From positions 1 to 32,541 of the forward strand of contig JAPKCQ010000009.1 in assembly GCA_026421165.1 (NCBI GenBank): DNA of 32,541 nt. Direction: 5' to 3'. Under the pieces are notes generated by a model. It searched no databases, had not been told where the DNA came from, and saw only the letters and a program-made list of their open reading frames with translations. Positions within the stretch are counted from its first letter, which is position 1. Each line of letters begins with the position of its first letter. Position numbers and translations under genes: made by a program. Source of the stretch: Lewinella sp. Lineage in GTDB: Bacteria > Bacteroidota > Bacteroidia > Chitinophagales > Saprospiraceae. Shown piece by piece: positions 569-15,440 of this stretch.

Positions 569-590
569 TACTACTCAGGCTCCTAGTTCC
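554..590. repeat. Inverted repeat spanning the stop of the PepSY gene
   Basis: GGAACTAGGAG (554-564) is the exact reverse complement of CTCCTAGTTCC (580-590), with a 15-nt loop. The left arm is still coding sequence and the stop codon TAG (566-568) lies in the loop. It probably folds at the mRNA 3' end. No T-run follows, so it is not a classical terminator. Confidence 0.6.
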
Positions 591-697
591 CTAGCTCCTG
601 GCTCTCTAGTTTCTAGCGCTCTAGTTTCTAGCTCCCTAGTTTCTAGTTCTCTAGTTTCTAGTTTCTAGCGCTCTAGTTTCTAGCTCCCTAGTTTCTA
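580..697. repeat. CTAG-rich tandem array (about 15-bp unit)
   Basis: About eight degenerate copies of a 15-bp unit close to CTCTAGTTTCTAGCG lie head to tail, built from alternating 7- and 8-bp steps that each begin with CTAG. The array fills the whole gap between the convergent PepSY and slyD genes. Its last unit supplies the TAG stop codon of slyD (695-697 on the minus strand). CTAG is normally a rare tetranucleotide in bacterial DNA, so this density is striking. Confidence 0.85.
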
Positions 698-1204
698 TCT
701 CCGAACCCCATCCTCCGCAATAAACCGTTTCTGGATCAGCTCATCGACCGTAGCCTTACGCACCTCCAGCACCGCGCCGGAGAAAAAGAGCGTCTTCCCG
801 GCCAGGGCATGATTGGCGTCAAGCGTAACGGCCTCATCGTCCCATTTCAGGATTTTGGCGTTGACGGGTTTGCCGTCGGAACTGGTTAGGGTTACGAACT
901 GACCGGCGACGAGCAGGGTCGGGTCTGTTTCTCCCCGTTCGTCCTGGAAGTGATGGATGGGCATGCTGAGGACGTGTTCCTTACCCGCTACGCCGTAGGC
1001 ATCCTCCGGAGCCAGTTTGAAGGCGAAGCCGGTGCCGGACTTTAATCCGAAGAGGCGGCGCTCCCAGGCGGGCAGCATTTTACCGGCGCCGAACATGAAT
1101 TTGAAGGGGTAGTTTACGTCCATCCGCTCCATTAGCGGCCCGCTTTCGCCGCCGTCGCGGACTTCGTAGGTTAGGGTTACTATCGTGTGGTCGTCAATTG
1201 TCAT
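695..1204 (-). CDS. slyD: SlyD-type FKBP peptidyl-prolyl cis-trans isomerase
   Basis: Protein of 169 residues that would catalyse proline isomerisation and act as a chaperone. The FKBP core is at residues 1-72 (YPFKFMFGAGKMLPAWERRLFGL, then APEDAYG). It is interrupted by an insert-in-flap chaperone domain at about 73-126 and closed by the diagnostic LDANHALAGKTLFF segment at 128-141. The His-rich metal-binding tail of E. coli SlyD is missing, as in many homologues. The ATG overlaps the end of the upstream small membrane-protein gene by 11 bp, so the two are probably co-transcribed and translationally coupled. The stop codon is provided by the CTAG-rich array. No signal peptide, so cytoplasmic. 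Confidence 0.9.
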   Translation of the reverse strand: MTIDDHTIVTLTYEVRDGGESGPLMERMDVNYPFKFMFGAGKMLPAWERRLFGLKSGTGFAFKLAPEDAYGVAGKEHVLSMPIHHFQDERGETDPTLLVAGQFVTLTSSDGKPVNAKILKWDDEAVTLDANHALAGKTLFFSGAVLEVRKATVDELIQKRFIAEDGVRR

Positions 1205-1397
1205 TTAGGGGTTGTTTGTTGCCGCTTAACTTTTGCCAAAGAATGACGGCGAAGACTAGAAACATACAGAGGTGAGCAGCCTTCAGCCAGTAACCATTCG
1301 GTGGCAAAGCACCGGTGGGTATGAATATCACCACCAGCGCATAAAGGCTTGCGCCGATGAGCAGAACTTGTAGGTAAAGAGGAAGGTCGAGTTTCAT
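1194..1397 (-). CDS. Small two-helix membrane protein
   Basis: Protein of 67 residues with two predicted membrane helices: about 7-27 (LQVLLIGASLYALVVIFIPTG) and 37-56 (LKAAHLCMFLVFAVILWQKL). The ORF track extends it to 1451, but that codon is TTG and the added 18 residues are polar and not conserved-looking, so I chose the ATG at 1397, which opens directly into the first helix. It overlaps the slyD start by 11 bp, suggesting coupled translation. I do not recognise the family. It could be a membrane partner in a folding or envelope process, but nothing in the sequence shows that. Confidence 0.55.
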   Translation of the reverse strand: MKLDLPLYLQVLLIGASLYALVVIFIPTGALPPNGYWLKAAHLCMFLVFAVILWQKLSGNKQPLNDN

Positions 1398-1548
1398 GGA
1401 ATAATTAACGTCTGCTTCTGGCTTTGGTTTTATCCTAGAGGAAAACTTCAACGGCGCGTGAATCCTTACTGTTTTCTCTTAAATTTAGCCTGATAACCCA
1501 AACCATTGGGTGTTTTACCGTCTGATCCGTCTGCAGTAACACCTCTAA

Positions 1549-7461: not shown

Positions 7462-10155
7462 CTACTTCCATCCAAAAAAAACAGATAAATTAGGCGTAAA
7501 CCGAAGGCCAAAATTCTCAATTGAACTCACGAAAAACGTTCGGTGATCGCCGCCGAATGGAGGCTGTTGAGGTTCCACTTCCTGGTAGCGAAAAACGCGG
7601 CTCCGAGCATTTTTACGGTTGTAGACATTAAGCAGCGACAGGCCTATTTTTCCGTAAAACCCCTTGGTCCCAGGCTTGGCTCCCCACTGGTAGAATGCAG
7701 ACAAGTCGAGCCTGTGAAAGGCGGGTAGGGCACCTGCATTCAATCCTTCCCTTTGAATGTTTTCCGGTTCCAGTCTTTCGGTCGTGACGATGATGTCGGT
7801 AGCAACAGCCGGAGAGAAACGGTTGCCCGTCCGGTACTGCCATCCGAGAGAGAATAGCCAGTGATTGGTTTCAAACGAGTTTACCCATTTGAGTTGGTGG
7901 CGGCGGTCATTGGCGGCGGGAAAAAAATTATCGGAGATCTCGGTGAAGCGCCAGTCGGTTTTACTCAGGGAATAGATTGCCCAGGAATTAAAGTTCTTCC
8001 AGCGCTTCTTGACCAACAGGTCAGCCCCAATAGCCCGGCTTGCACCGTTGAAAAAGGTGTCGCCTGGGTCCGTTGAGCTGAGCAGGTTGAGGGAGGATAA
8101 ATTGGATATTCGTTTGTGGTAGGCTTCTACGTCGATAAGCCACCCTTTCTTCTGCCAGAGCGCACCGACGGTTGCTTCCTGAGCACCGGAGACTAGAATA
8201 TCTTCGCCGTCGGCGAGGGCCCACAACGGGGTAACCCCACTGAGTTGGTCGAAATCCAGTTCAATGATTTCGTTGAAGAATTGGTGGTTCTCTCCGTAGC
8301 CTGCTTTTAGCAGGAGGTTTTTTGAAAGTTGGTAACTGGTGGTTAGCCGGGGTTCGGCGTAGACCACATTATTAGGGGCATAATATTGAAGCCGCATACC
8401 GATTTTGGCCCGCCAGGCTTTAAAGGGTTGTATGGTGTAGGTCCCGTAGGCTACGGCATTGTCTCCATTGAAAGGTTCCTGCTGAGCATCGAACTCTTCG
8501 TCGGAATTCGCTTCACTATAGCTGAAGGCACTGTTCAGCCGTTGGAATTGAAGCCCTGCTTTAATGGAACTCTGTTGGCCTACTGGCCGGAAGTAATCAG
8601 CTTTAACCGTGAAGTCACTGATGGTACTTTCTCTACCATCTTCAAAACTATTTTCGAAGCCCTGTATATCGAGTTCGAACGCAGTGAAGTTTTCATTGCG
8701 GTAGTCTGAGTGAGACACTTGCAGCCCAATATTACTACCTCCAGGTAATTGGCGTTTAAGGGAGGCACTAAGGCCGTTATTACGGGTGCTTATCGCTTCG
8801 GAAGTAGCCAGGTCAATCTCAATTTGCTCGAATGTTACCTCGTTCGCAAAGACATCGGATTGGAGAAATCCGCTGATGGTGACGGAGGTCTGCCGGTCAG
8901 GGTTCCATTGCCAACGGGCGTTGAGCTCGGTAAAATTGAAGGCTTGGTTCGTACTCTCTAGCGAATCGTTAACGCTAATATCAACGCTGCCAAAAGATAA
9001 GGTGTTGAGGGAGGTATTCTGAAAGACCTGCCGTTGAAAACTCTGGTAGGTCGGGTTGTCAAATGGACCGGTGAGGGACGTCCGCGCGGAAACATGGAGG
9101 TCGGACTTGCCTTTAATGATGGGGAACTTCACGTAAGCATCCACATGCGTGAGGTTGATGGTAGCACCAACTTCCGGCCGGTCGATGATCTTTCTGGAAG
9201 TATTCATCTCCACCACCCCGGAAAGCCGGCCGCCATAACTGGCTTCCGCTTGGCCGCGCCAGATGCGCATTTCATCGACTAGGTTTGGGGAGAAGAAAGA
9301 GATCATGCCGAAGTAATGACCGGAGGCGTAAACGTTGATGCCGTCCCAGAGAACGTGCGTTTGATCGGGTGCCCCACCACGAATGCTCAATTTTCCGGCA
9401 GACTCGTCTGGAGAGTTAATGCCAGGAAGTAGTTGGGCGGAGCGATAGACCTCTTTTTCGGTGAATCCCGGCAGAGCGGAGAGCCGACTTGGCTGGACAA
9501 TTACTTCGCGTCCTTCGAGGGAAGAAGTAACGCCGTCGGTTAGGTATTCAATGACTTCTATCGAGGTAAGTTCAATGCCGGAGGGCTGTAGTGCCAGTAC
9601 GGGACACTGCGCACCGGCGGCGTCGCTGACGGCCACGCGGAGTTGTTGGTAGCCGAGGAAATAAAAGGTCAGGCTATCGGCTGGGCGGGCGGTGATTTTC
9701 CGGCGGCACCAGCCGTCGTTGTCGGAATAGAAGCTTTGCTCGCCGTTGTTTAGGGCAGACGTTACGAAGGGCAATTCGGCGCCGTGCTCATCGGTGAGGC
9801 GTACGCATATTTCCCAGTCAACGGGCGTACCGGGGGGGAGGGTAGTGAGGACTACGTAGCCACCCGACAGGGTTTTGGCTTGGATGCCGGTGTGCTTAAA
9901 GAGGTAGTTCTCGACTTCCGGCCAGGCGGCGTCTTTAAAGTTGCGGTCGATGATTTTATCGCCGAGGGTATTGGCGAGGTAGGAGAAGGTTAGGGAATAT
10001 CCCCGCTCCAACTCGGTAAGGATGTCGGTTAGCAGGCGTTGTTCGTAATTAGCGGTAAGGCGAAAGTCTGGAGTCTCTTGGGCGTGTAATGTTTGCTGCC
10101 CGGTTGGCAGAAAGAGAAAGAATACAGAGAGGAATAAGAACCAGATGAAGCGCAT
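7462..10155 (-). CDS. TonB-dependent receptor with STN signalling domain
   Basis: Protein of 897 residues located in the outer membrane. The signal peptide is about 1-26 (MRFIWFLFLSVFFLFLPTG..LHAQ). A secretin/TonB short N-terminal (STN) domain follows at about 30-105, then a CNA-B/carboxypeptidase-like domain at about 115-200. The plug is at about 225-330 (LPGFTEKEVYRSAQLLPGI..GKLSIRGGAPDQTHVLWDGINVY). The rest is a beta-barrel ending in an aromatic-rich strand. STN domains pass ligand binding on to a FecR anti-sigma factor, and such a fecR and its sigma gene lie directly upstream, in the order sigma-fecR-receptor as in Fec systems. Ligand unknown: a ferric siderophore, another metal chelate or a peptide are possible. 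No SusD partner is present, which argues against glycan uptake. Confidence 0.92.
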   Translation of the reverse strand: MRFIWFLFLSVFFLFLPTGQQTLHAQETPDFRLTANYEQRLLTDILTELERGYSLTFSYLANTLGDKIIDRNFKDAAWPEVENYLFKHTGIQAKTLSGGYVVLTTLPPGTPVDWEICVRLTDEHGAELPFVTSALNNGEQSFYSDNDGWCRRKITARPADSLTFYFLGYQQLRVAVSDAAGAQCPVLALQPSGIELTSIEVIEYLTDGVTSSLEGREVIVQPSRLSALPGFTEKEVYRSAQLLPGINSPDESAGKLSIRGGAPDQTHVLWDGINVYASGHYFGMISFFSPNLVDEMRIWRGQAEASYGGRLSGVVEMNTSRKIIDRPEVGATINLTHVDAYVKFPIIKGKSDLHVSARTSLTGPFDNPTYQSFQRQVFQNTSLNTLSFGSVDISVNDSLESTNQAFNFTELNARWQWNPDRQTSVTISGFLQSDVFANEVTFEQIEIDLATSEAISTRNNGLSASLKRQLPGGSNIGLQVSHSDYRNENFTAFELDIQGFENSFEDGRESTISDFTVKADYFRPVGQQSSIKAGLQFQRLNSAFSYSEANSDEEFDAQQEPFNGDNAVAYGTYTIQPFKAWRAKIGMRLQYYAPNNVVYAEPRLTTSYQLSKNLLLKAGYGENHQFFNEIIELDFDQLSGVTPLWALADGEDILVSGAQEATVGALWQKKGWLIDVEAYHKRISNLSSLNLLSSTDPGDTFFNGASRAIGADLLVKKRWKNFNSWAIYSLSKTDWRFTEISDNFFPAANDRRHQLKWVNSFETNHWLFSLGWQYRTGNRFSPAVATDIIVTTERLEPENIQREGLNAGALPAFHRLDLSAFYQWGAKPGTKGFYGKIGLSLLNVYNRKNARSRVFRYQEVEPQQPPFGGDHRTFFVSSIENFGLRFTPNLSVFFGWK

Positions 10156-10278: not shown

Positions 10279-11259
10279 TTATTTGGGCGATAGGGTAACT
10301 TTTTCACCTTGGCGTTGGTACTTCAGGCTCTCCAGCGGTAGGAGGGCGATTTGGAGGGCCAGGTCGAGAGAGTCGTGCGGGAAACCGGTATTGATGAGCT
10401 GTTCCAAATCATGACCGATAGGAAGTTGTATTTCGATATCGTACTGGCGCTCCAGTTCGGCGATGACTTCGGAGAGGGGTCGGGCGTTGAAAACGGAGCG
10501 ACCGTTTAGCCAGTCGAGGCTTTCATTGTCCGGGATGGAAGCTTCGGAAACCAGACCATTAGCATCGATACTAACGGATTGGCCGGGGGTTAATGTATAG
10601 GTATCGGCTTCGCCCTGTCCGGCGTCAGGGGAGGAAGACTCAAAGCTGACGCCGACTTTACCGGTGGAACAGCTTACCCGCATCACGCCCTCACGGCTGT
10701 AGACGTTGAAGGAAGTTCCCAGCACCCGAACCTTGCCGCGTGGTGTATTTACAGTAAAGGGCCTACCGTCTTTTTTAACCTCAAAGTAGGCCTCCCCGTC
10801 CAGTTTTACGACTCGCTCCACTTCGTCTCCATTGAAGGCGAAGGAGGTTACAGCATTGAGCTGAACGGAGGAGCCATCGGGGAGGTCTGCTTGTTCGGTA
10901 GTACCGGCGGCGGCCATTAATTCAAGGTCTACACCCGGGCGGAGTAGGAAGATAGCAGTAATCAATAGTAAAACGGCAGCGGCTGCTCCCATCCAGTAAA
11001 CGGGGTTCAAACGGAGGACCTTAGCTCCTTTAACTTCCCCTGTACCTGCGGGCGCGCCCAACTGCTTACGGCGTTCCTTAAGTTCTGCCAAGGCACCCTG
11101 GGCATCATAGGCGGGCCGTTGAAGTTCTTTAGCCGTCTGCGCCAACCGCTCGTACTCGGCAAAGCCCGGACGCGCCTTAAGCTCTCGTTCTTCGGCCTCG
11201 CTGAGCGAGCCGCCGAGCCAGCGGCCCAGTAAATCATCCTTATTGAAGTTTTCTTCCAT
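10279..11259 (-). CDS. FecR-family anti-sigma factor
   Basis: Protein of 326 residues. The ORF track starts at a GTG (11307); the ATG at 11259 begins MEENFNKDDLLGRWLGG, the normal beginning of the family, so it is preferred. A cytoplasmic sigma-binding region precedes one membrane helix at about 86-107 (VYWMGAAAAVLLLITAIFLLRPG). A periplasmic FecR domain is at about 115-215 (ADLPDGSSVQLNAVTSFAF, DGEAYFEVKKD, RPFTVNTPRGKVRVLGTSFNVY). A C-terminal DUF4974-like domain is at about 255-324 (RPLSEVIAELERQYDIEIQL). It should hold the adjacent sigma factor inactive until the STN receptor binds its ligand. It lies 57 bp after the sigma gene. Confidence 0.93.
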   Translation of the reverse strand: MEENFNKDDLLGRWLGGSLSEAEERELKARPGFAEYERLAQTAKELQRPAYDAQGALAELKERRKQLGAPAGTGEVKGAKVLRLNPVYWMGAAAAVLLLITAIFLLRPGVDLELMAAAGTTEQADLPDGSSVQLNAVTSFAFNGDEVERVVKLDGEAYFEVKKDGRPFTVNTPRGKVRVLGTSFNVYSREGVMRVSCSTGKVGVSFESSSPDAGQGEADTYTLTPGQSVSIDANGLVSEASIPDNESLDWLNGRSVFNARPLSEVIAELERQYDIEIQLPIGHDLEQLINTGFPHDSLDLALQIALLPLESLKYQRQGEKVTLSPK

Positions 11260-11316
11260 GCTTGTCGGTTGCGAGACTATAAACGAAACAGGGTAGGTCG
11301 TTTTCACCCTACCTGC

Positions 11317-11835
11317 TTAGAGTGATTTATGAATTTTTCTCAGATCGAGCAATGCACGGCTCATTCTTTTTTCTACTGCTTTCTGGCTGATGTTGAGGAG
11401 TTCGGCGATCTCGCGGTACTTCATCTCTTCCACTCTGTTTAGCAGAAAAACCTCGCGGGCACCTGCGGGTAAAGCAGCAATCGCCCGTTCCAGTTTCTCG
11501 CGAAATTCGTTCTCTTCCATCAGGTCCTGCGGGGTCTCACTTTTCTCGCTGATTCCCGCCTGGTGCGCATTGAATTTGAGGACCACTTTAGCGTGCTCCA
11601 CCTGGTTGAAGAAAAGGTTCTCCGCCACCCGAAACACAAAGGCTTTGGCTTTTTCGGGCGCCACCTTTGCACAGTTGTCCCACAATTTAAGAAAAGCATC
11701 CTGAACGAGGTCCTCGGCCTTGCCCGCATCGCCAGTCCGATATATAAGGAAGTTACGCAGCAGGGGAGCTACGCGCAGGAAGGTCTGGTCATAGACCGAC
11801 TCTTCGCAAACACCCTTGGTGGGTTCTTCCTTCAT
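11317..11835 (-). CDS. ECF RNA polymerase sigma factor (FecI-like)
   Basis: Protein of 172 residues, the usual size for sigma-70 family ECF factors. Region 2 lies at about 22-90, with the -10-binding stretch DLVQDAFLKLWDNC. Region 4 lies at about 112-168, with REVFLLNRVEEMKYREIAELLNISQKAVEKRMSRALLDLR, a helix-turn-helix that binds the -35. It is first in the sigma-fecR-receptor operon and divergent from the acidic repeat lipoprotein gene, so it may drive one or both. The ATG at 11833-11835 is the natural start. Confidence 0.95.
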   Translation of the reverse strand: MKEEPTKGVCEESVYDQTFLRVAPLLRNFLIYRTGDAGKAEDLVQDAFLKLWDNCAKVAPEKAKAFVFRVAENLFFNQVEHAKVVLKFNAHQAGISEKSETPQDLMEENEFREKLERAIAALPAGAREVFLLNRVEEMKYREIAELLNISQKAVEKRMSRALLDLRKIHKSL

Positions 11836-11993
11836 TTCGTATTAAAAGAATTATTGAAAAAATGAGAAGTGGGGTAGGGTAAAGTTATCCCTTCCTGTTT
11901 GAGGGGGCAAATTACGCATCCTGTACGAAGGGTGCTATCATCAAAACCAGGTTTGTGCAGTTACGGCTGCCAGCCTCCCCTAAAAATAACTTT
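11836..11993. promoter_or_regulatory. Divergent promoter region, sigma factor / acidic lipoprotein
   Basis: A 158-bp gap between two divergent starts. It is strongly A/T-rich next to the sigma-factor ATG and holds a G-rich block (GTGGGGTAGGGT, 11871-11882). I could not assign promoter boxes with confidence. The arrangement alone suggests shared regulation. Confidence 0.35.
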
Positions 11994-13508
11994 ATGTTTA
12001 AGTTCAAAGTAACCAACGTCTTCTACATCCTTCTCCTTGCCCTAACCTTCACCGTCGTCTCTTGCGACGAAGACTCGCTACAGGAAGACATCACCCCTAA
12101 TCTCCCCGCCACGGAGGTACAAAACCAGCTGAATATGGCAGTAGGCCGCGCGCTGCCGCCTGATGATAATACTTCCGCCGATTCCATGTGTTTTACGTTC
12201 AATTTTCCACTCGAACTTACACTGGAAGACGGTAGTACAGTTACCGTAGCCGATGAGGAAGCGCTGGAAGACGCTTTCCTGGATGCCAGATTCGCTGATA
12301 ACTTTGTCGCTGACTTCGTTTACCCCTTTTCCCTAACCCTTTCCGACGGTTCTGAAACGAGCGTTGGTGACTTTGAAGGCCTCATGGAGGTGCTCATCGA
12401 TTGCTTCGGCGACTTCGAAGATTGGGACGATGAAGGTGACTGGGACGACCACGGCGATTGCCCCGCTGACTTCGACCTTGCTGGCTCCTGTTTCGAACTG
12501 GTGTTCCCCATCACCGTAATCTCCGGTACCGGAGAAACAGAAATCACTGACGAAGAAGCCTTTGACGAGTTCCTGATCAGCCTCAACCCTAACGATGCGG
12601 TGCCTTTCCGCTTCGCTTTTCCCTTCTCTGTACTTTTGGATGACGACGATGAGATCGTTGTAATCAGCAGCAACGAAGACCTGGAAGAAGTGCTCGAAGA
12701 TTGCGACTTTAGGGAGTGGGATGATGATGATTTAGACGATTGCTTCGGCTTCGGTCTGGGAGGAGATTGCTTTGAGATTAATTTCCCGCTAACGCTGTTG
12801 ATCAACGATCAACCCGTAATCCTCGACGACGAAGAAGACTTGCTTGAAGTATTGGGTAACCTGGAGCAGGATGGCGAAGTGGACATCGAACTGGAGTTTC
12901 CCGTTTCCATTACACTGCTCAGCGACGACAGCGTTGTGACCGCCAATAGTGAGGAAGAACTAGAAGAGACCATCGAAGACGCCTGCGATTGGGACGATGA
13001 TGATGACGAAGACTGGGACATCAACGAAGGCTACGGCTGCTTTGAAATCAACTTCCCGCTCAACCTGACCATCAACGGTGAAACGGTTACCATCAACAGC
13101 GAAGAAGACTTCGCTACCATCTTTATTGACCTGGACGGAGACGTAGGACTTGACATCGAACTAGCTTACCCCGTTACCGTAACCGTTTTTGCTGACAGCA
13201 GCACAGTGGTAATCAACAACGAAGAAGAGTGGGAAGCCCTCTGTGATGCCTGCCACTTCGATGGCGGAGACGGCGGCTTTGATGACGAATGCTTTTCTTT
13301 CAATTTTCCACTGAATGTTCTCGTTGACGGTGAAACCATAACGATAGCATCTGAAGAAGGCCTGGTGGCACTCTTTACGGACTTCGACCTGGAAGCAGCC
13401 TTCGGCGGTTTCTCCTTCCCATTTAGCGTTACCATCGAAGATTCAGGAGAGGTTGTTACCGTGAACAACGAAGAAGAGTTTGCTGCACTAGCAATACGCT
13501 GTGAATAA
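11994..13508 (+). CDS. Highly acidic Cys-bounded repeat lipoprotein
   Basis: Protein of 504 residues, family not recognised. The track's GTG start (11955) adds 13 residues before the true ATG (11994), which opens a lipoprotein signal ending TFTVVSC (lipid Cys24). The mature N-terminus is acidic (CDEDSLQED), like Bacteroidota surface-export signals. The body has five repeats starting at Cys66, 166, 259, 349 and 434 (CFxxNFPLxL), each of 85-100 residues and made of two half-repeats with the pattern F/Y-P-x-x-V/L, DG, V-T-V, EEE. Most repeats end in a further Cys. The linkers between repeats are Asp/Trp-rich (DWDDDDDEDWD, EWDDDDLDD). Possible reading: a surface cation-binding or adhesive protein. 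It is divergent from an ECF sigma-FecR-TonB receptor operon and followed by a strong terminator. Confidence 0.8.
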   Translation: MFKFKVTNVFYILLLALTFTVVSCDEDSLQEDITPNLPATEVQNQLNMAVGRALPPDDNTSADSMCFTFNFPLELTLEDGSTVTVADEEALEDAFLDARFADNFVADFVYPFSLTLSDGSETSVGDFEGLMEVLIDCFGDFEDWDDEGDWDDHGDCPADFDLAGSCFELVFPITVISGTGETEITDEEAFDEFLISLNPNDAVPFRFAFPFSVLLDDDDEIVVISSNEDLEEVLEDCDFREWDDDDLDDCFGFGLGGDCFEINFPLTLLINDQPVILDDEEDLLEVLGNLEQDGEVDIELEFPVSITLLSDDSVVTANSEEELEETIEDACDWDDDDDEDWDINEGYGCFEINFPLNLTINGETVTINSEEDFATIFIDLDGDVGLDIELAYPVTVTVFADSSTVVINNEEEWEALCDACHFDGGDGGFDDECFSFNFPLNVLVDGETITIASEEGLVALFTDFDLEAAFGGFSFPFSVTIEDSGEVVTVNNEEEFAALAIRCE

Positions 13509-13625: not shown

Positions 13626-15440
13626 TCATCCCACAACCACCCGCCGCTTACGCAAAGTCCCAGACTCCGAAGTCTCCTGCAAAACCCCTTCCTCTCCAGT
13701 ATTAATCTCCGCAGCATTGCCCTCATCCGTATCAATGTGCATCTCCAGTTTATACTTCGGAGAGACACGGATAAGGACGTTGCCGAAGGTGAGTGAACGC
13801 TCTCCGCTGCCAACCGCTACTTCCACGATATCACGGTCCTTAACACCAAAAACGGTGGCATCTTCCGGCGTCATGTGGATGTGACGCCAGGCGCAGATCA
13901 CGCCGTCTTCGAGCAGGAACTCTCCGGCGGAGCCGATCAGTTTGCAGCCCGGGGTGTCCTCTACTTTTCCGGACTCACGGACCGGGGCGTCGATGCCCAG
14001 GAAGAACTCGTCCGTTCGGCTGATCTCCAGCTGGTCTTTGCTCCGTACGGGGCCGAGGACACGGACGCGCTCGATGGTGTTACGAGGGCCGACAACAGTA
14101 ACCGTCTCTTCGGCAGCGAACTGCCCGGGCTGACTTAGCCATTTGCGAACCTTGAGTTCGTGCCCTTTGCCAAAGAGCGCATCTACCGTTTCTTGACGGA
14201 GGTGGATGTGGCGGGCGGAGATGGCGACGGGGATGGTTGGCATGGTGTTGACGGCGTCGGCCTTCTCGATCATTTTACCGCATTCGAGGGCGATGGCGAG
14301 CTGCTCGTCGGTCCGAACCGCCAGCAGTTTTACCCGGCTGTGTTGCATGCTGAAATCGATGACGGGGATCGTTTCCAGTAGCTGGACGGCAGCATTTTTG
14401 TCTTCGTTGATGATGGCGCCCAGGTAGCCGAGGCGCTGGCTGGCACGGTGGCGGATGACCGGGCTGTTCTCCCCGATACCGCCGGTAAATACGATCGCAT
14501 CGACCCCGCCCATGACGGCAGCGTAGGCGCCGATGTATTTGCGTAGCCGGTGGGTGAATACCTGTACGGCGAGCTGGCAATCGGCGTCGCCTTTGGCGGA
14601 TTTGTCGAGGATTGTCCGCATATCGTTGCCGGCGCCGGAGAGGCCGGCCAGTCCGCTTTTACGGTTCAGGAGGTCGTCGATTTCTTCGGGGCTGAGCCCG
14701 GCCTGTTTTTGTAAGTAGGGGAGAATACTGGGGTCTATATCGCCGGAGCGGGTGCCCATCACGAGGCCTTCGAGCGGCGTCATGCCCATGCTCGTTTCCA
14801 CGGAGCGGCCGAATTCTATGGCGGCCACGGAGCAGCCGTTGCCGAGGTGGCAAGTGATAATGCGCAGGTCTTTCGGTTGCGCGTCCAGGTAGCGGGCGGC
14901 GGCGGCGGCGACGTATTTGTGGCTCGTGCCGTGGAAGCCGTAGCGCCGGATGCCGTGCTCGGCCATCAGGTCTTTCGGCAGGGCGTAGGTTTTGGCGCGG
15001 CGGGGCATGTTCTGGTGGAAAGCCGTGTCGAATACCGCGAAATGATCCACATCGGGGAAGAGCTCGCGGGCGGCTTGGATGCCGCGTAGGTTGATGGGGT
15101 TGTGGAGCGGGGCTAATTTTTCAAGGGCTTCAATTTTAGCTTCCACCGCTTCATCAACGCGTACGGCGTGGTCAAAATCTTCGCCGCCGTGGACGACGCG
15201 GTGGCCTACGCCAGCGATTGGGGTGTCTTTCAGTTTGTCCTTCAGCACTTCCAGGCAAACGGCGATGGCGCGTTCGGGGCCCTTGCTTTCTAGCTCGATT
15301 ATGGTGCCGTCGGAGAATTCAATTACGGGCGCGTCGAGGAGCCGTTCGGCGCTCATTTCCAGGCTGCGCTTACCGGTGGCGGGGTTGATTACTGCGGCCT
15401 TTACGGAGGAGGAGCCGGCGTTTATTACCAGGATTTGCAT
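13626..15440 (-). CDS. Acetate kinase fused to PduL-type phosphotransacylase
   Basis: Protein of 604 residues. Residues 1-393 form a complete acetate kinase: N-terminal VINAGSSSVKA, catalytic Arg at about 81 in GHRVVHGG, Asp138 in FDTAFH, YGFHGTSH around 167-174, GTRSGDIDP around 229-237, and FTGGIGENSP with Glu324. After a short linker, residues 403-580 form a PduL phosphotransacylase: IPVAISARHIHL (zinc ligands about His411 and His413), AEETV at 443-447, CAWRHIHMTPEDA (His520 and His522) and EMHIDTDEGNAAEI (His568). Both halves appear intact. Together they would convert acetyl-CoA plus phosphate to acetyl-phosphate, then with ADP to acetate plus ATP, or the reverse. No microcompartment signal is visible, so it is probably a cytosolic housekeeping enzyme. 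No frameshift or internal stop separates the halves. Confidence 0.93.
   Translation of the reverse strand: MQILVINAGSSSVKAAVINPATGKRSLEMSAERLLDAPVIEFSDGTIIELESKGPERAIAVCLEVLKDKLKDTPIAGVGHRVVHGGEDFDHAVRVDEAVEAKIEALEKLAPLHNPINLRGIQAARELFPDVDHFAVFDTAFHQNMPRRAKTYALPKDLMAEHGIRRYGFHGTSHKYVAAAAARYLDAQPKDLRIITCHLGNGCSVAAIEFGRSVETSMGMTPLEGLVMGTRSGDIDPSILPYLQKQAGLSPEEIDDLLNRKSGLAGLSGAGNDMRTILDKSAKGDADCQLAVQVFTHRLRKYIGAYAAVMGGVDAIVFTGGIGENSPVIRHRASQRLGYLGAIINEDKNAAVQLLETIPVIDFSMQHSRVKLLAVRTDEQLAIALECGKMIEKADAVNTMPTIPVAISARHIHLRQETVDALFGKGHELKVRKWLSQPGQFAAEETVTVVGPRNTIERVRVLGPVRSKDQLEISRTDEFFLGIDAPVRESGKVEDTPGCKLIGSAGEFLLEDGVICAWRHIHMTPEDATVFGVKDRDIVEVAVGSGERSLTFGNVLIRVSPKYKLEMHIDTDEGNAAEINTGEEGVLQETSESGTLRKRRVVVG

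Follow-up and report, generated by a model that had tools for sequence, protein, structure and literature searches.

Studies have shown that the EcfO-Reo system of Phocaeicola (PMC13114119) and the Das1-Dma1 system of Bacteroides (PMC13088901) drive NigD lipoproteins. In FecI-FecR-FecA and FoxI-FoxR-FoxA, one genetically linked system combines an ECF sigma factor, a FecR whose C terminus is STN-like and a receptor whose N terminus is a signalling domain (PMC11637429), and the SusCD and BtuBG pairs of Bacteroidota combine a TonB receptor with a surface lipoprotein. In this study, we analyzed a stretch of 32,541 nucleotides from Lewinella sp. (the window), in which a repeat lipoprotein, here called REP, stands opposite an operon of the Fec-like layout, so that the locus resembles both the Fec-type systems and the receptor-lipoprotein pairs. 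In our reading, the operon is probably a trans-envelope ECF sigma switch and REP its regulated output at the cell surface, and the term "output" is better supported for REP than "partner".

REP and the operon opposite it

REP (11994..13508, plus strand, 504 aa) was recognized as a surface-type lipoprotein with five Cys-bounded units by its ORF, lipobox, unit HMM and full-length model. Its start was taken at ATG 11994, the mechanical ORF call being GTG 11955. The lipobox is FTVVSC, and the mature protein begins with CDEDSLQED. Across a gap of 158 bp, three genes are transcribed divergently on the minus strand: an ECF sigma factor similar to the Bacteroidota Sig70_bacteroi1 (11317..11835; PF08281, 1e-17), a FecR-type anti-sigma/regulator (10279..11307; PF04773, 7e-18, and PF16344) and a TonB-dependent receptor of the transducer type with a Plug (3e-9), a beta-barrel and an STN-like N terminus (7462..10155). 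The sigma factor and the adjoining FecR-domain protein, identified by PF08281 and PF04773, match the sigma/anti-sigma pair of a Fec-type module. The sequence-only reading had described a complete sigma/FecR/STN-receptor trio across this gap; the sigma factor, the FecR, the Plug receptor and the gap all held, and the STN domain was weak in the window (E 0.027, sub-threshold) and clear in relatives of the receptor, which reached 1e-10 (STN) and 1e-7 (FecR_C). The same genome carries four FecR genes and a second REP-family lipoprotein, and both REP genes lie opposite sigma-FecR-receptor operons. Beyond REP, one 604-aa ORF of the window (13626-15440, minus strand) fuses an acetate kinase and a PduL-type phosphate propanoyltransferase (PTAC) (Pfam 3e-133 and 2e-77).

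Repeat units and predicted fold

The unit HMM, which has 75 columns and was built from family members, found exactly five units in REP (12189..12404, 12489..12704, 12768..12986, 13038..13253 and 13287..13502, all on the plus strand), with starts 83-100 residues apart. The [FY]P half-repeats were at residues 71, 110, 171, 209, 264, 302, 354, 392, 438 and 475, exactly the ten that had been counted by the sequence-only reading. In the 73-unit family alignment, Cys1, Pro7 and the last Cys were invariant and Pro45 was nearly invariant. The full-length model (pLDDT 71.6) has five ordered units, and the Asp/Trp-rich linkers between them are disordered. The unit HMM, the family alignment, the lipobox and the model thus agree with the initial description of a five-unit, Cys-bounded lipoprotein with such linkers.

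For unit 3, AlphaFold2 was given 84 units from the window and related loci and returned a confident model (pLDDT 91) of two beta-beta-beta-alpha halves. No family in Pfam or NCBIfam matched the unit above the cut-off, no credible match was found among PDB sequences, and no shared fold was found in the PDB (Foldseek, best E 2.4) or among viral models (best E 0.18), with TM scores of approximately 0.4 or below in both cases. At the sensitivity used, the repeat is therefore without a family name or solved fold in Pfam, NCBIfam, the PDB and viral models, as the failure to recognize a named domain had suggested. A literature search for the family in FecR or Saprospiraceae contexts returned nothing.

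Several candidate identities were rejected. One half-repeat of REP resembles the DGD-V-I-SDEDL stretch of PB1 (PF00564), and a sub-threshold resemblance to PB1 occurred in 13 of the 73 family units (best E 0.001); however, the REP match scored 20.9 bits against a gathering score of 23.6, covered positions 46-70 only (approximately 25 of the 84 in the profile) and had no counterpart among PDB folds. The resemblances to CyaY and Rib were also sub-threshold, and PDB matches to tyrosyl-tRNA synthetase (E 0.036) covered a single half-unit and look like chance.

The number of units varies from 2 to 6 among homologues. In L193, the half-repeats are nearly without Cys and no Cys bounds the units, which indicates that the fold can do without the Cys pair. 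Two other homologues (L039 and L055) have, by eye only, a Kazal-like Cys-rich segment ahead of the units. Four Flavobacteriaceae homologues (L145, L147, L153 and L154) have additional lipocalin-like modules C-terminal of the units; that of L154 matched DUF4923 barely above the cut-off (E 6e-5), and the L145 protein had no Pfam match.

Linkage of REP homologues to sigma factors

In the same-family (Saprospiraceae) set, whose loci were picked by protein similarity and which had relatives in 92 of 150 genomes, a sigma gene was within four genes of the lipoprotein in 46 of 61 REP loci; five of the other 15 were at contig edges and 10 were not. The phylum-wide set was picked independently, with the unit profile alone, and 40 of 396 genomes were positive; here the sigma gene was immediately adjacent in 38 of 40 loci. 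Adjacency by chance is approximately 2.5%, from up to 44 Sigma70_r4_2 matches per genome, and because the loci are related and the counts not independent, no exact probability is claimed. These counts, together with the shared promoter motif described below, strongly support the proposal that the sigma/FecR/receptor operon has REP as its partner or output.

A third set, of named records, was found by a search with the Dma-type alignment. Besides Saprospiraceae MAGs, it contained Flavobacteriaceae, among them Maribacter luteus, M. vaceletii, Eudoraea adriatica and Flavobacterium gillisiae. All Flavobacteriaceae homologues in it are divergent from the sigma gene, which is followed by FecR and the receptor on every contig of sufficient length. 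In the Maribacter and Eudoraea loci examined, the cassette is alone between argS and ffh/folD. The same-family loci had four layouts: divergent as in the window, sigma-FecR-receptor-lipoprotein, lipoprotein-sigma-FecR-receptor and lipoprotein-sigma-c4. REP is not a universal partner of every FecR, since it was present at only two (L103 and L106) of the 26 same-genus FecR loci that were retrieved from other genomes by FecR alone.

Small proteins of approximately 160 aa, lipoprotein-like and with an HELGH metallopeptidase-like motif, were seen in nine loci (L072, L077, L081, L083, L084, L088, L189, L190 and L192), mostly encoded between sigma and FecR; PF18894 was sub-threshold in L084. They could act on the anti-sigma.

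Two anti-sigma architectures

The anti-sigma beside REP is of two types, either FecR with a TonB receptor, as in the window, or a single Dma/Reo-like protein (c4). In the c4 proteins, a short N-terminal part is followed by one TM, a polar tether and a C-terminal outer-membrane barrel, which is the Dma/Reo anti-sigma architecture (PMC13088901, PMC13114119). The single TM near residues 40-80 and the polar tether were found in 41 of 42 c4 proteins, and two of those scanned (L071 and L065) matched OMP_b-brl_2 (PF13568) above the cut-off. We therefore regard them as predicted Dma/Reo-like anti-sigmas that would span both membranes. Thirty-one Dma-type sigma genes adjoin REP without a FecR/receptor pair, and the Dma-type operons examined contained no receptor or transporter.

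In a quick sigma tree, Dma-linked and FecR-linked sigmas were on separate sides, and the REP-linked FecR-type sigmas appeared in more than one place. The ECF sigma that adjoins the Dma-type anti-sigma, a candidate member of the ECF21 group, thus belongs to a lineage apart from the FecR-linked sigmas. The window sigma was in a clade of 23 (support 97), and REP was adjacent to 22 of these. Another family of the same class contributed three loci (L212, L215 and L205) in which lipoprotein-sigma-Dma is followed by a second sigma-like gene of 287 aa.

A promoter-like motif before REP and fecR

Motif search found a promoter-like motif, GTAGGGTA-N14-TGTTTGA, upstream of REP (11874..11902, plus strand), and the same motif, as GTAGGGTG-N14-TGTTTCG, between sigma and fecR (11284..11312, minus strand). 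These are exactly the two occurrences of GTAGGGTA-N14-TGTTT in the window (11874-11900, plus strand, and 11286-11312, minus strand), where 0.02 are expected, and none was found before the sigma gene. Because of the second site, the start of fecR should be ATG 11259 and not GTG 11307.

The dyad GTAGGGTA-N14-TGTT/TGTC recurs upstream of divergent REP genes, with a spacer of 14 in all 31 fitting upstreams. GTAGGGT preceded 36 of 62 divergent REP genes, compared with 13 of 1078 other genes at these loci and none of the 62 reversed sequences. By a looser GTAGG test, 20 of the 62 upstreams lacked the motif, and another motif, TGAGTACA, was present in some Saprospiraceae modules, including some of the upstreams without GTAGG. 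Before fecR, the motif was found in 38 of 77 REP modules and in 2 of 20 FecR loci without REP; before sigma, it was found in 1 of 77. Judged by this shared motif, the sigma factor would switch REP on.

GGTAGGGTRAA occurred nine times in the whole genome of the window (three times for the reversed-pattern control), and four of the nine cores were the REP and fecR promoter-like sites of the two modules. One further core, with a matching downstream element, preceded a PKD-domain lipoprotein gene (L231, C231:7066; gene 584-1414, minus strand) as GTAGGGTG-N14-ATTATT. This lipoprotein may also belong to the regulon of the window sigma or its paralogue. In the Dma-type operons, TGCAACG was upstream of the lipoprotein in 24 of 42 cases versus 3 of 1078 other genes; other genes served as the control for TGCAACGT, since TGCAACGT reads the same backwards and a reversed-sequence control is invalid. 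Because distinct motifs precede the FecR-type and Dma-type lipoproteins, the lipoprotein gene of each sigma type appears to bear a mark of its own.

Two loci, L115 (7208-9061, plus strand) and L118 (1107-4739, minus strand), have the same cassette without REP and with the motif before fecR. There, a T9SS-tailed FG-GAP protein and a SASA esterase occupy the divergent slot behind the same motif, which speaks for this slot encoding the output of the sigma. This result bears on another reading, in which REP is part of the receptor complex, sits on the barrel, presents ligand or acts as a gate, and tunes the sigma signal while being induced itself; SusD and BtuG are models for such a lipoprotein. 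Both architectures constantly pair REP with a sensor that contains a barrel, and protein identity across the cassettes falls from approximately 60% for sigma to 45% for FecR, 37-43% for the receptor and 26-30% for REP, so that the two surface components diverge fastest, as this reading would have it. However, unrelated secreted proteins fill the slot in L115 and L118, and REP is therefore not obligatory for the receptor, FecR and sigma; in addition, the two sensor barrels found with REP are of unrelated size and type. We regard a place in the receptor complex as possible and not as the favoured explanation. Still more speculatively, the unit may be an undescribed compact fold that is coupled to several ECF sigma lineages and two sensor architectures; it would bind the sensor barrel or its ligand and form an exchangeable extracellular half of the switch instead of being a passive output.

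Surface export signal and acidity

In Bacteroidota, surface lipoproteins carry a lipoprotein export signal (LES) of the C-X-K-(D/E)2 or SDDDD type (PMC5080379). A mature start of the C-x-[KRQ]-[DE] type was found in 83 of 131 REP family members versus 5 of 35 other lipoproteins, and the mature start of the window REP, CDEDS, likewise has acidic and polar residues after the lipid Cys. REP is thus predicted to be on the cell surface.

Such display is consistent with an adhesin or a protective coat induced by envelope stress, for example one shielding barrels from phage or antibacterial toxins. The multi-domain string, its fast divergence and the variable unit number fit this function, and in Phocaeicola vulgatus, antibacterial toxins elicit a response from Reo-type sensors (PMC13114119). 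Since no adhesin, lectin or defence family matched REP in Pfam or NCBIfam, we consider this function rather unlikely.

The mature window REP contains 28% Asp+Glu and 1% Lys+Arg (family medians 23.5% and 2.2%). The sequence-only reading had called the lipoprotein acidic and suggested that it could collect a cation or chelate for the receptor. The acidity was confirmed for the window protein and its CDEDSLQED start; across the family it is typical and not universal. One branch, which includes the paralogue in the same genome and same-genus relatives, contains 9-13% Lys+Arg, and its units and linkers are neutral or basic; the linkers are also basic in the short two-unit forms. A conserved role in cation binding thereby loses its main support, and cation collection was rejected as the conserved function of REP. 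A collector feeding a TonB receptor would also have no receptor to feed at the Dma-type loci, and no calcium- or metal-binding family matched above the threshold. The composition of the window protein speaks for a cation or metal-chelate collector, and we nevertheless hold that reading to be very improbable.

Proposed switch and comparison with known systems

We return to REP as the regulated output of the sigma switch. In this model, a signal at an outer-membrane barrel would reach the anti-sigma and free the sigma factor. The sensing barrel would be the STN-type TonB receptor in the window and the barrel of the Dma/Reo-like anti-sigma in other genomes. The freed sigma would recognize the motif and transcribe REP, together with fecR and the receptor where the module is of the FecR type, and not its own gene. 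REP would then be exported by the signal after its lipid cysteine and be displayed as compact Cys-bounded domains on disordered linkers.

Compared with Fec-type signalling, the REP cassettes add a constant surface lipoprotein, and the Maribacter and Eudoraea loci examined had no transporter genes. Different from the SusCD and BtuBG pairs, REP has no SusD or BtuG match and also occurs with sensors without a TonB receptor. The closest likeness is to NigD, the main lipoprotein output of an ECF sigma freed by an anti-sigma that extends from the cytoplasm to the outer membrane (PMC13114119, PMC13088901). REP matched neither the NigD profiles (Pfam, NCBIfam) nor a solved NigD structure, in sequence or fold, and the window module differs in using FecR and a TonB receptor instead of a Dma-like protein. 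The best-supported reading is that REP is parallel in function to NigD under EcfO-Reo and Das1-Dma1 and unrelated to it in sequence. The predicted promoter motifs make such regulons readable from genomes, and the four-gene cassette in Maribacter luteus, M. vaceletii, Eudoraea adriatica and Flavobacterium gillisiae makes the model testable. NigD is the main reported output of the trans-envelope ECF switches of Bacteroidota; REP would be a second lipoprotein output, one that is unrelated to NigD and occurs with sensors of both the FecR/receptor and the Dma/Reo type.
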